A stretch of DNA of 39,838 nucleotides from a bacterium TMED217 (GTDB lineage Bacteria > Fidelibacterota > Marinisomatia > Marinisomatales > UBA1611), in NCBI GenBank assembly GCA_002169695.1, contig NHJO01000008.1, positions 1 through 39,838 of the forward strand, written 5' to 3'. The position numbers were made by a program, and so were the translations under genes. The notes below the pieces were generated by a model. The model worked only from the letters and a program-made list of their open reading frames with translations. It did not search any database and had not been told where the DNA came from. Positions 559 through 5,427 of this stretch are shown piece by piece. The stretch's first letter is position 1. Every line of letters starts with the position of its first letter.

Positions 559-2421
559 TTATTCTTGTATTAATAAATCAATTTTATTTATCATAGTCTG
601 AAACTCTTCTTTATCAAACAATCTAGTTAAAAATGCAATTTTACCATTTTTATCGATTACAATATTTCGAGTCACTCCAGAGTTAATATGTGCAAATTTA
701 GAAAAATGTTTGGCGCCAGGATCAAGAGCGATTGGATAAGTAGTACCAACTTTTTTTTGAAACTTTTTCACAACATCTAAAGGTTCGTCTTTATCTATAC
801 CTATTAACATTAATCCTCTATCTTTATACGTATTCCAAACTTCTTTTTCTAGATGCGGCATTTCTTGAATACAAACTGAACACCAACTTGCAGTAAATTG
901 TAAAACTACAACCTGACCTAAAAAATCTGAGAGTTGCACAGTTTCTCCAGTTGTGTATTCTAATAAAAGATCAGGTGCTTGATCGCCTATAGAGACTATA
1001 TAGCCACGTTTATTTGCTGTTGGTTGCTTGACTATATTAGAAAAGGCTAGGCTGCCTTTTCTGAGCTTTCTATTTTGGGTAGTGAAATCAACCTCATATA
1101 GGCCAAACTTCATTTTATACCCTTCGGCCCATTCAAAATTATCCATTAAAGTCCAATAAAAATATCCTCTTATATCATAGCCGTCCATCATAGCTTTATA
1201 TAAGGCATACAGATATCTTTCTATGAATAATTTTCTTCTATCATCCTTATCATCAGCTATCCCGTTTTCTGTTATAATTATTGGTTTATTTAAGTTACTT
1301 ATGGTTTGAATCGCTCTGTAAAATCCTTCTGGATATATTGAGTAAGGCATGTCAGTTTGTATATCCTCTAGCCTTGTTTCAAATGTAAAAGGGTTTGTAG
1401 CGTTAAAGTGCCCTTTAACATGCCACCTAGAATAATAATTTAATCCAATAAAGTCTATTGCACCAATTGCGTCTGTATTTTTAAATGAAATATTTGCCAT
1501 TCCGGGCAAATAAAAATTGAAATTACCTGTTGATAATAAATCTATAGTATTGTTTGTAAAAATATCATTTAGTATCCTGCTAAAATACCAATCAAGAATA
1601 TGCCACCTTCTTAATGGATCAAATTGAGTAATGTTTTTGACAAGGCCAATTTGAACATTCTTACCATTTGGAAGTGATTTTAGATGTCTAAAGACCCTTA
1701 CATGTGCATTTAATAAATTTTTCATTACATAACCAGCGAGAACTGGGTCCTTTTTACCTGGTGGGAAGACACCATTAAAATATCCTTGGGATACATACAC
1801 AGCAGGCTCATTGATTGTACACCAATAAGGAACTAGATCAGATAGTTTATTAAATACAATTTCTGAAAATTCTAAATAATGTTTTATATTTTCTTCTTTT
1901 TCAAACCCTCCAAGGTCTTCAAACCAAATTGGGTGTGTAAAATGATGAAGGGTAACTACAGGTGTAAGTCCTGAGTCGATTAGAGCAATACAAAGATCTC
2001 GATAGTGTTCAAGTGCTTTTGCATTGAATATTCCATTTTCTGGTTCAATTTTGCTCCATTCTACTGAGAACCGATAGTACTTAACACCTAATTTATTCAT
2101 TAGGCCTATATCTTGATTATATCTATTCCAGTGGTCAGCAGCTAGACCCGACTTATCATTATTGTGTATTCGTGGTTTACCGTTGCTGTCTTTTTGATGC
2201 TCAAAACGATACCAATTGTTATTAGTGTTATTACCTTCAACCTGATGTGCAGCAGTTGCAGTACCCCACATAAAATCATTTGGAAAATAAATTTTATCTG
2301 TTTTGATTTTATCCCAATTCCATTGTAGTTCGGGATTAGATATACGATAATTAACTATTGTTAATAACAACAATAGGAAGGGGATAATTAATAATATTAA
2401 AAGATATTTTCTAGAATTTAT
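559..2421 (-). CDS. GH1 beta-glycosidase fused to a TlpA-like thioredoxin domain
   Basis: One uninterrupted frame encodes two enzymes. Counting from the TTG at 2373, residues 25-450 are a glycoside hydrolase family 1 barrel with acid/base E189 (T-I-N-E-P) and nucleophile E369 (I-T-E-N-G). Residues 455-604 are a thioredoxin/TlpA-type domain with active site W-C-S-V-C (C498, C501) and a Thr where the usual cis-proline sits. GH1 enzymes cleave beta-glucosides or galactosides, and TlpA-type domains reduce or exchange disulfides outside the cytoplasm. Upstream of the TTG the frame stays open for 16 more codons that encode a lysine/arginine start and a very hydrophobic helix, so I place the start at ATA 2421, overlapping the stop of the upstream gene. 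This gives a membrane-anchored or exported protein. No ATG is available, and TTG 2373 is the conservative alternative. The gene is probably co-translated with the upstream CBS-type gene. Confidence 0.85.
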   Translation of the reverse strand: MNSRKYLLILLIIPFLLLLLTIVNYRISNPELQWNWDKIKTDKIYFPNDFMWGTATAAHQVEGNNTNNNWYRFEHQKDSNGKPRIHNNDKSGLAADHWNRYNQDIGLMNKLGVKYYRFSVEWSKIEPENGIFNAKALEHYRDLCIALIDSGLTPVVTLHHFTHPIWFEDLGGFEKEENIKHYLEFSEIVFNKLSDLVPYWCTINEPAVYVSQGYFNGVFPPGKKDPVLAGYVMKNLLNAHVRVFRHLKSLPNGKNVQIGLVKNITQFDPLRRWHILDWYFSRILNDIFTNNTIDLLSTGNFNFYLPGMANISFKNTDAIGAIDFIGLNYYSRWHVKGHFNATNPFTFETRLEDIQTDMPYSIYPEGFYRAIQTISNLNKPIIITENGIADDKDDRRKLFIERYLYALYKAMMDGYDIRGYFYWTLMDNFEWAEGYKMKFGLYEVDFTTQNRKLRKGSLAFSNIVKQPTANKRGYIVSIGDQAPDLLLEYTTGETVQLSDFLGQVVVLQFTASWCSVCIQEMPHLEKEVWNTYKDRGLMLIGIDKDEPLDVVKKFQKKVGTTYPIALDPGAKHFSKFAHINSGVTRNIVIDKNGKIAFLTRLFDKEEFQTMINKIDLLIQE

Positions 2422-3374
2422 CAGATTTTAAATCCATTATGCTTCATCCACTCATCTCTTGGAAATTTTGTCATGTAATTCCGTATGCTATCGGCTAAAA
2501 TAACAAGGCAGTTTTGTCCAGGCTTGAGTTCTGATGCAGCTTGCAAGGCCGCGACCATTGTAGCTCCACAAGAGCCTCCACATAGTAGTCCTTCTTCTTT
2601 GATTAGTCTTCTGGCCATAATAAACGACTCCTCATCATGTGTTTTTATATATTGATCAATTAGATTATTATCTAGTACATCAGGAATAAAATCATAGCCT
2701 ATTCCTTCTACGAGATATGAACTAATTCCATCACCTCCACCAAGTATTGACCCGACTGGATCGGCTCCAACAATTTTTATATTTGGTAATTCTTTTTTTA
2801 AACGTTTTGCTACTCCTGTTATTGTACCACCAGTTCCAACAGATATAACAATCATGTCAAGATCGCTACCAAAATCTTTAATTATTTCTTCAGCAGTACC
2901 TTCATAATGTGCATTAGGATTTGACGGGTTTGAGTATTGATCTAAAATATGTGAATTTTTTATTTCTTTTTGTAGCTTTTTCGCAACAGAGATGTGGCTA
3001 TCCGGATCACTAGAAAGTGCTTCGGTCGGTGTTCTTACAATTTTTGCACCAAGTGATTCGAGAACGATTTGTTTTTCTTGGCTCATTTTTTCTGGCATAG
3101 TAATAATGCATTTATATCCTTTTACGGCAGCTGCTAGAGCTATTCCTTGCCCTGTATTTCCAGACGTAGGCTCTATTAAGGTATCACCAGGTTTTATTCG
3201 TCCAGATTTTTCTGCGTCTTCAACCATCTTCCAGCCTATCCTATCTTTAACTGATCCACCAGGATTAAAGAACTCACATTTGGCAAAGAGGTTACAGTCT
3301 AACTCTTTAGAAATTTTGTTAATTTTTACAACCGGAGTATCCCCAATTGTGCTTAAAATAGTATCGTGTATCAT
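2421..3374 (-). CDS. Cystathionine beta-synthase / cysteine synthase (PLP, fold type II)
   Basis: This is a PLP enzyme of the cysteine synthase/CBS family, forming a C-S bond on an activated serine. The PLP lysine is K43 (G-G-S-V-K-D-R), the substrate loop is P-T-S-G-N-T-G at 69-75, and the phosphate-binding loop is G-T-G-G-T at 180-184. Wording such as [19 protein letters not shown] and R-N-Y-M-T-K-F matches cystathionine beta-synthase better than CysK. At 317 residues it has only the catalytic core, with no N-terminal heme segment and no C-terminal CBS (Bateman) domains. It would act in transsulfuration from homocysteine or in making cysteine/H2S; which of these cannot be decided from sequence. 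It is the first gene of a minus-strand pair, and its TGA overlaps the proposed start of the GH1-thioredoxin gene. Confidence 0.85.
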
Positions 3375-3459
3375 TTATCTATATTCACTTAATTATTAGT
3401 TCTATATTAGTGATTACTCTAGATAATATAAACGTCTTCTTTTATGAGCATATAAAAAA

Positions 3460-4938
3460 ATGGTAAATCAATCACATAAACTAAGTGGTCCTTTTTTAAT
3501 TGAATTAAAGAATAAATTCCGTGAGATTGCAGGAGATGATAATAAAATTGATCGAGATGAGTTTAGCAAAGGTCTCTCTATAAATAATGAAAAAATAGTT
3601 AATCGGATTTTTGATATTTTTGATAAAGACCATAATGATTATTTAGATATAAATGAGTTTATATCTGGAATTGAATCTCTTATCAATGGTGAAAAAGAAG
3701 AAAAAATTAGATTTGCTTTCGACATACATGATTTTGATGCTAGTGGTGATATAGATCGCAAAGAGCTAAAAGTACTTATTAAAAATATACTTTTAGAAAA
3801 TAATCTAGAGTTTGATATTTATCAGGTAGATTTAATTGTTGATGAGTTTTTTAAAACTGCAGATTTAGATCATAACGGTGTAATAGACTTTGATGAATTT
3901 TTAAGTCTTGTTGAAAATTATCCAGATTTAATAAATAGCTTAGCGGTGAACCCAGTCTCATGGTTTAATCCAAATCGGAAAGAGTTTATTGTTGAATCGA
4001 AGTTAAAAACTCAATCAAAATCGTATAAAGTACAGGTACAAGATCTGAGTATCCTCCAATGGTTATTAGTACCAAGACTTATTTATTTTTATAATATAAT
4101 ATTAAACCGAGCCAAAAATAAATTAGATATATCTATCGATTCATTACAGATATTACCTGAAAAAAATATATCATTTTCATTTATAAAACCTGATTGGTTT
4201 AATTATAAATCAGGGGACTATGTTTACATTAACTGCCCATGGATATCAAAACTAGAGTGGTATCCATTTAATATAGTCAGTGCAAGTAATAGTGATTCAG
4301 TTTTTTTAAATATCAAAGCTAATGGCCTATGGCCTGAAAAAATATATAATAAAACGATAGAGATGTTAAACCAAGACACCGTTGATAGACTCCGTATAAG
4401 GATTGATGGGCCATATGGCTCATCAACTGATAATATATTAAAAAGTGAAAATTTAATAATTGTTGCTGCTGGCACCGGAGTAGCAAAATTTGCCTCAATT
4501 ATGCAAGATATTGCCTATCGAGAAAGATCAAATAATATAAGGTCAAACGTCAAAAAATTGTCTTTTATATGGCTTAGTGATAATGAGTTTTATCTCGAAT
4601 GGTTTAAAAAATTATTAAATGAATTAAGGAAAGATTTCAAGCTCATTATGTTTGAATATCATATTTTTTTTATTGATAGAGTAGCTTCAGAGCTACCCAA
4701 GAATATGCTTTATGTTTCAAAAGATATTTATAAGGACGATCTTAATATTAATTTAGTATCTCATTCAAAAAAGAACTATAGCATAGGACATCCGAATTGG
4801 AATGATGAATTGAAACAGATAAAGTCAAAGTTTAATAATGAAAAAATTACATTATTTTATTCAGGTCCAAGACACGGAAAAAAAAACTTAAAGAATTCCT
4901 GTAAAGCTCTAGATATTGATTTTAATAGCAGCATCTAA
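3460..4938 (+). CDS. EF-hand protein fused to NOX5-type FAD/NADPH dehydrogenase, no heme domain
   Basis: This 492-residue protein starts with a calmodulin-like region. Three canonical EF-hand loops lie at residues 55-66, 91-102 and 135-146, each with acidic positions 1, 3 and 12, and a degenerate one is near 25-36. From about 196 it follows the C-terminal half of NOX5-type NADPH oxidases: L-Q-W-L-L-V-P (199-205), E-W-Y-P-F-N at the FAD motif (266-271, usually E-W-H-P-F-T/S), D-G-P-Y-G (316-320), a glycine loop A-G-T-G-V (337-341), G-H-P-N-W (443-447) and S-G-P (468-470, usually C-G-P). The six-helix heme-binding ferric-reductase domain that should lie between is absent; only about 30 residues join the halves. 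In the family, Ca2+ binding to the EF-hands switches on electron flow from NADPH to FAD to heme to oxygen. Here the acceptor is unknown, and the changed His and Cys positions leave catalysis uncertain. It is monocistronic, with no clear ribosome binding site. Confidence 0.8.
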   Translation: MVNQSHKLSGPFLIELKNKFREIAGDDNKIDRDEFSKGLSINNEKIVNRIFDIFDKDHNDYLDINEFISGIESLINGEKEEKIRFAFDIHDFDASGDIDRKELKVLIKNILLENNLEFDIYQVDLIVDEFFKTADLDHNGVIDFDEFLSLVENYPDLINSLAVNPVSWFNPNRKEFIVESKLKTQSKSYKVQVQDLSILQWLLVPRLIYFYNIILNRAKNKLDISIDSLQILPEKNISFSFIKPDWFNYKSGDYVYINCPWISKLEWYPFNIVSASNSDSVFLNIKANGLWPEKIYNKTIEMLNQDTVDRLRIRIDGPYGSSTDNILKSENLIIVAAGTGVAKFASIMQDIAYRERSNNIRSNVKKLSFIWLSDNEFYLEWFKKLLNELRKDFKLIMFEYHIFFIDRVASELPKNMLYVSKDIYKDDLNINLVSHSKKNYSIGHPNWNDELKQIKSKFNNEKITLFYSGPRHGKKNLKNSCKALDIDFNSSI

Positions 4939-4989: not shown

Positions 4990-5427
4990 TTATTTTACTT
5001 TTATGCTTCTAAGACTAGTTTGTGTTTCTTCTGTTTTGGGTAAAATAACAGTTAAAACTCCGTTCTTAAAAACAGCAGATATTTTTTTCTCATCAACCGT
5101 TAATGGAAGTTTGAACGATCGAAAAAACTTACCATGGTTCCGCTCATGATAGTGATATTCAACATCTTTATCTGCTTTTGTATATTCTCGATTTCCACTT
5201 AACCTTAACATATTATCTTCTACTGAAATATCAATATCTGATTTATTAAGTCCCGGTATATCAGCAGTTAAGGTAAATGAAGAACTATCTTCATTTATGT
5301 CTACAGCTGGCAACCAGTTTTCTTTGATGTCCTGTTTGTAGATATTATTATTTAACACCGTATTCATTACTCTATTCATATCATCAAATATAGATATTGG
5401 TCTAGAATTCAAATTAATTAATTTCAT
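4990..5427 (-). CDS. Hsp20/alpha-crystallin small heat-shock protein
   Basis: A 145-residue small heat-shock protein, an ATP-independent holdase for unfolding cytoplasmic proteins. The alpha-crystallin domain spans about residues 37-145. It includes a W-L-P-A-V-D-I start, A-D-I-P-G-L, an R-x-S-G-x-R/N segment, and the closing G-V-L-T-V-I-L-P-K motif with the I-x-I-like tail reduced to S-I-K-V-K. A clear AAGGAGACA ribosome binding site (5431-5439, read on the minus strand) fixes the ATG start. Upstream lie a perfect TAnnTTTG promoter element and two copies of a palindrome described separately. The protein is monocistronic and ends at the bidirectional terminator. Confidence 0.93.
   Translation of the reverse strand: MKLINLNSRPISIFDDMNRVMNTVLNNNIYKQDIKENWLPAVDINEDSSSFTLTADIPGLNKSDIDISVEDNMLRLSGNREYTKADKDVEYHYHERNHGKFFRSFKLPLTVDEKKISAVFKNGVLTVILPKTEETQTSLRSIKVK

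Follow-up and report, generated by a model that had tools for sequence, protein, structure and literature searches.

What can a NOX5-type oxidase become once the heme domain between its calcium switch and its dehydrogenase has been removed? The question is raised by an open reading frame in a 39,838-nucleotide stretch of contig NHJO01000008.1 (hereafter the window) from the bacterium TMED217, whose assembly GCA_002169695.1 measures 1.1 Mb, is 64% complete and has a Candidatus Neomarinimicrobiota MAG as its nearest named relative. A sequence-only reading of the window had described three intact EF-hand loops joined directly to the FAD/NADPH half of a NOX5-like oxidase, and had offered three possible functions: a calcium-controlled soluble reductase, a partner for a separately encoded membrane heme protein, or a non-catalytic sensor. 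The features of the locus are collected in Table 1.

Table 1. Features of the heme-less NOX5-like gene and its immediate neighbours, in window coordinates
Feature	Position	Strand	Basis
Cysteine synthase-like gene (PALP), divergent neighbour	2421..3374	-	Conserved synteny
Heme-less NOX5-like protein	3460..4938	+	ORF with ATG start, 492 aa; orthologues conserved
EF-hand 1, degenerate as in NOX5	3508..3573	+	Colinear with NOX5 EF1; loop non-canonical
EF-hand 2 loop DKDHNDYLDINE, canonical, residues 55-66	3622..3657	+	Ligand positions invariant
EF-hand 3 loop DFDASGDIDRKE, canonical, residues 91-102	3730..3765	+	Ligand positions invariant
EF-hand 4 loop DLDHNGVIDFDE, canonical, residues 135-146	3862..3897	+	Ligand positions invariant
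Variable linker, residues 170-197, replacing NOX5 preTM1 + TM1-TM5	3967..4050	+	Alignment; low model confidence
Retained TM6-equivalent helix, residues 198-221, QWLLVPRLIYFYN...	4051..4122	+	Aligns with DUOX1 M6 through R1270
FAD_binding_8 domain, residues 224-322	4129..4425	+	Pfam, 71 bits vs cut-off of about 22
YPFN replacing HPFT, FAD isoalloxazine motif	4261..4272	+	Motif alignment
NAD_binding_6 domain, residues 330-481	4447..4902	+	Pfam, 78 bits vs cut-off of about 22
GTGVAK replacing GxG[IV]TP, NADPH loop, Pro to Lys	4471..4488	+	Motif alignment
SGP replacing CGP	4861..4869	+	Motif alignment
Hsp20 gene, convergent neighbour	4990..5427	-	Conserved synteny

The joining of EF-hands to a NOX5-like dehydrogenase is confirmed by domain and structure matches. 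In Pfam, EF-hand_7, EF-hand_6 and EF-hand_1 fall within the first 154 residues of the window protein and are followed by the two dehydrogenase domains; Pfam gives no match to Ferric_reduct (PF01794), and a motif check for bis-His heme sites finds no His-X12-14-His pair. Human NOX5 is the best solved structure by sequence (E 9e-57), residues 17-170 being colinear with human NOX5 14-167 and residues 199-485 with 374-711, so that about 200 aa are missing between the two blocks. Searched by itself against the PDB, the dehydrogenase half has NOX proteins as its sole matches at E<=1e-10, the best being NOX5 of Cylindrospermum stagnale (csNOX5), and generic reductase families match the window protein far more weakly (NCBIfam, E 7e-7). 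An AlphaFold2 model of the window protein built from 18 orthologues is of medium confidence (pLDDT 71.5, pTM 0.60); its first Foldseek matches are human NOX5, DUOX1, csNOX5, NOX2 and SpNOX, with generic FNRs below. Because matches by both sequence and fold lead to NOX first, the C-terminal half is NOX-like, and the concern that it might be a general ferredoxin reductase can be set aside, NOX-specific families and structures being dominant.

The excision is nevertheless smaller than had been described. All six helices of the heme domain had been thought missing, with the retained LQWLLVP segment following the last of them; five helices are indeed gone, but the sixth is present. Window residue 201 aligns with human DUOX1 1252 and the match extends through R1270, a residue that sits on M6 and contacts the dehydrogenase (PMC7794343), and the csNOX5 transmembrane construct 5o0t spans the corresponding stretch in a full-length relative. 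LQWLLVP is therefore TM6 itself, from which it follows that TM1-TM5 were lost along with both heme sites while TM6 was kept. Mean pairwise identity in the region of this helix (residues 191-222) is 62%, compared with 62% for the EF part, 48% for the FAD part and 43% for the NAD part. The region has a conserved Arg or Lys at the position where NOX5 has Gly, and its conserved basic residue K219 is the one that aligns with DUOX1 R1270. Its hydrophobicity is borderline, similar to that of TM6 in full NOX5.

At the N terminus, the window protein has the four EF-hands of the NOX5 subfamily, EF2-4 being canonical; these are the three loops recognised earlier, to which the degenerate EF1 is now added. 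Across 18 orthologues the side-chain calcium-ligand positions 1, 3, 5 and 12 of EF2-4 are kept in every readable cell (208/208). In NOX5 itself, EF-hands 3 and 4 fold in response to calcium and bind the dehydrogenase (PMC7317449; PMC11088703). The csNOX5 docking segment can be aligned in the heme-less proteins and, as we read the alignment, its two key Asp are partly conserved.

While the calcium ligands are invariant, the cofactor residues have mostly been lost. We numbered residue equivalents after NOX2 and counted them at the readable positions of the 18 heme-less orthologues. The His of the HPFT motif (His338 equivalent) is kept in two and is Tyr in 15, and its Thr (Thr341 equivalent) is likewise kept in two, with Asn in the other 16. 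No orthologue retains the Arg356 equivalent (Lys in 17, Gln in one) or, among 17 readable proteins, the Pro415 equivalent of the GxGxxTP loop, where all have Lys or Arg. The 2'-phosphate arginines, Arg446 and Arg513, which we assign to these motifs by analogy with NOX2 and from the conserved motif positions, are kept in 1/15 and 0/18, and the CGP Cys (Cys537 equivalent) in 2/18. The changes of the FAD-motif His to Tyr and of the CGP Cys to Ser had thus been called correctly for the window protein, and the list grows by the Thr of HPFT, the GxGxxTP loop and the two arginines for the NADPH 2'-phosphate: judged against the cofactor-binding and hydride-transfer residues of the FNR superfamily, the His, the Thr, the loop Pro, both Arg and the Cys are all replaced. 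Retained features are the Pro-Phe of the isoalloxazine pocket (18/18), the GPYG aromatic residue (17/17), the Trp (18/18) and the C-terminal Phe (13/18), the last having been lost only in the genus of the window, two members of which, G002 and G003, additionally lack the GxG loop and CGP. Two full-length NOX5 proteins from the same bacterial family, encoded in G017 and G023, keep every listed cofactor residue.

Motif filters published for bacterial NOX (PMC5676040) divide these proteins in the same way. The FAD filter H[PSA]F[TS][LIMV] rejects YPFNI of the window protein and 17 of the 18 orthologues, the NADPH motif rejects GTGVAK and all 18, and both full-length proteins pass the two filters. 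On its sequence, then, the window protein is NOX5-like in build yet falls outside the tests that define a NOX. The isoalloxazine pocket of NOX2 comprises P339, F340, T341 and R356; a T341K mutant no longer incorporates FAD, H338Y is a disease-causing change and disease also maps to P415 (PMC13296129). In DUOX1 the NADPH 2'-phosphate is held by R1424 and R1495, and the transmembrane domain contributes part of both cofactor sites (PMC7794343). SpNOX, which has no 2'-phosphate arginines, accepts NADH and NADPH equally, and in its C370A mutant only the KM is raised (PMC11564096).

Matches were found in 23 of 245 genomes of the phylum (Marinimicrobia), all within one family. The heme-less form is present in 22 of them, some matches being cut by contig ends, and full-length NOX5 in two, of which G023 carries both genes. 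As the first evidence was a single MAG contig, an obvious concern was that a normal NOX5 gene had been cut short by misassembly or deletion, a possibility that we now regard as vanishingly small: the layout is repeated in nine genera, in separate assemblies and at the same locus, full NOX5 lies at a different locus, and these orthologues exclude both assembly error and a private deletion. The gene is intact in about 20 species, and no match to it contains an internal stop. Values of dN/dS for close pairs are about 0.10-0.13, indicating purifying selection, above those of cysK and comparable to those of some other neighbours, and the EF part mostly evolves more slowly than the NAD part. A quick tree, with a root of our choosing, places the 18 heme-less proteins apart from the two full NOX5 and groups the members of genera g1, g4 and g10, consistent with vertical descent. 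Mobile or viral spread was rejected as a route, no viral contig or plasmid match having been found. From the colinearity of the sequences we infer that the heme-less protein arose from a NOX5 ancestor by loss. Beyond the Marinimicrobia, the search consisted of one strict pattern scan of genome contigs.

In every case with readable flanks, cysK runs divergently from the heme-less gene, and hsp20 and tldD-like genes are close by. Upstream of the heme-less gene (window positions 3400-3459, for example) is a conserved AT-rich stretch that includes ATAAATTA, which in many relatives precedes the start by about 35-45 bases; this stretch is a possible promoter within the cysK-divergent region. The start codon is TTG in most relatives outside the genus of the window. 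Also adjoining cysK, in the window (562-2373, minus strand) and in many relatives, is a gene of about 600 aa in which a family 1 glycosyl hydrolase is fused to an AhpC/TSA redoxin, the redoxin part standing alone in G018, G023 and the g2 genomes. In g9 (G023, G031, G032) the heme-less gene is followed by an SDR gene in an operon-like run, with a gap of about 5 bases at most between the two or an overlap of 1 base. A PF03358 FMN reductase comes next after the SDR in G023 and G032, and adjoins the heme-less gene itself in G022. Several carriers lack this reductase, so it can be taken as no more than a hint of redox context, and as an obligatory partner it is unsupported. At the same locus in G017 and G028, cysK is directly divergent from the SDR, followed by the FMN reductase, and the heme-less gene is absent; since other g9 members have it, it was probably lost in G028. 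G026 also has the locus without the heme-less gene, and there only a short remnant of the SDR is left.

Among known systems, the closest is NOX5 itself (human and csNOX5), which shares with the heme-less protein four colinear EF-hands, TM6 and the order of FAD_binding_8 before NAD_binding_6, and differs in having TM1-TM5, the heme histidine pairs and intact FAD and NADPH motifs; human NOX5 also has a PhosR insertion without counterpart here. The full Marinimicrobia NOX5 proteins (662-663 aa) come from the same bacterial family and have EF domains about 45% identical to those of the heme-less proteins, but they contain Ferric_reduct and their dehydrogenases are only 28-30% identical. Their genes belong to a conserved run that also encodes several CxxCH-rich multiheme c-type cytochromes, which suggests an electron-transfer role beyond superoxide production. 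DUOX1 likewise combines EF-hands with a NOX dehydrogenase, but has a heme domain, a peroxidase-like domain and functional NADPH arginines. The isolated dehydrogenase of SpNOX has the FNR fold and is able to act without its membrane part, whereas natural SpNOX keeps its membrane domain together with an active cofactor site and lacks EF-hands (PMC11031084). The FNR fold is also shared by generic ferredoxin-NADP+ reductases and by flavin reductases such as Fre and LuxG, but their matches are much weaker. In the literature searched, which takes in few subscription journals, we found no account of a NOX5 relative of this heme-less kind.

Of the functions proposed, the non-catalytic one is favoured, because the calcium ligands are invariant while the cofactor residues have been lost. 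We consider it somewhat probable that the heme-less protein is a calcium-switched pseudo-dehydrogenase, probably acting as a calcium-responsive regulator and not as an oxidase. Several observations pull the other way: the retained Pro-Phe, GPYG, Trp and, in most orthologues, C-terminal Phe, the activity of SpNOX without 2'-phosphate arginines, the redox neighbours in g9, the only partly conserved docking Asp and the medium confidence of the model. A calcium-controlled soluble flavin or quinone reductase, which would use NADH or either nucleotide, bind its flavin loosely and deliver electrons to some soluble acceptor where a NOX would use hemes, appears unlikely to us, if still a serious competitor. 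The SpNOX dehydrogenase, once separated from its membrane part, still works as a flavin reductase (PMC11031084), the missing 2'-phosphate arginines are compatible with NADH use, the pocket retains Pro-Phe, GPYG, usually the C-terminal Phe and a Lys at R356, and in g9 the heme-less gene leads the run before the SDR and the FMN reductase. However, nearly every member has other residues in place of the HPFT Thr and His, of the loop Pro and of the CGP Cys, and the genus of the window has dispensed with the C-terminal Phe as well, G002 and G003 going further still.

The conserved TM6 helix and K219, equivalent to a dehydrogenase contact in DUOX1, would suit a cytosolic subunit that docks through this helix on a separately encoded membrane heme protein and so rebuilds a split NOX. 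The membrane gene that this would call for, a ferric reductase of the kind suggested for a search by the sequence-only reading, did not appear: PF01794, the membrane heme family searched for, was not found in the carriers, many of them incomplete genomes, except for the full NOX5 of G023 itself. This weakens the partner option, as do the lost NADPH residues, which would block electron input, and we hold a split NOX to be improbable. We give marginally less credence to a decaying or dispensable NOX5 relic without function, for which one could cite the NAD domain as the part diverging fastest and the clean absence of the gene from the conserved locus of G028 while its g9 relatives have it. A relic would not be expected to remain intact in about 20 species at a dN/dS of about 0.1, with invariant calcium ligands and with both synteny and upstream sequence conserved.

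If the heme-less protein is a calcium-switched pseudo-dehydrogenase, its origin and action might be pictured as follows. A NOX5 relative would have lost TM1-TM5 and both heme sites, keeping the four EF-hands, the TM6 helix and the FNR-fold dehydrogenase. Calcium bound to EF2-4 would, by analogy with NOX5, order the EF domain and cause it to dock on the dehydrogenase, which may still hold flavin and would serve as a conformational effector or docking platform in place of transferring hydride from NADPH; the protein may be membrane-peripheral through its TM6 helix. The effect of calcium would then be an altered shape or binding surface in place of electron flow, with any downstream partner responding to that change. 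It is quite conceivable, if a little short of probable, that excision of TM1-TM5 converted a membrane oxidase that made superoxide into a dedicated calcium-dependent regulator that one marine bacterial family has retained, with the dehydrogenase domain as a calcium-gated docking or flavin-sensing module.

NOX5 ties its calcium switch to its electron pathway, making the switch hard to study alone. In these bacteria evolution appears to have parted the two, leaving the switch invariant and removing the heme domain and most of the cofactor residues. If this is true, the EF-dehydrogenase pair of NOX5 can serve alone as a calcium-signalling module, the docking of EF domain on dehydrogenase could be studied in a natural protein without the heme domain, and a largely uncultured marine phylum would gain a predicted calcium-binding protein.
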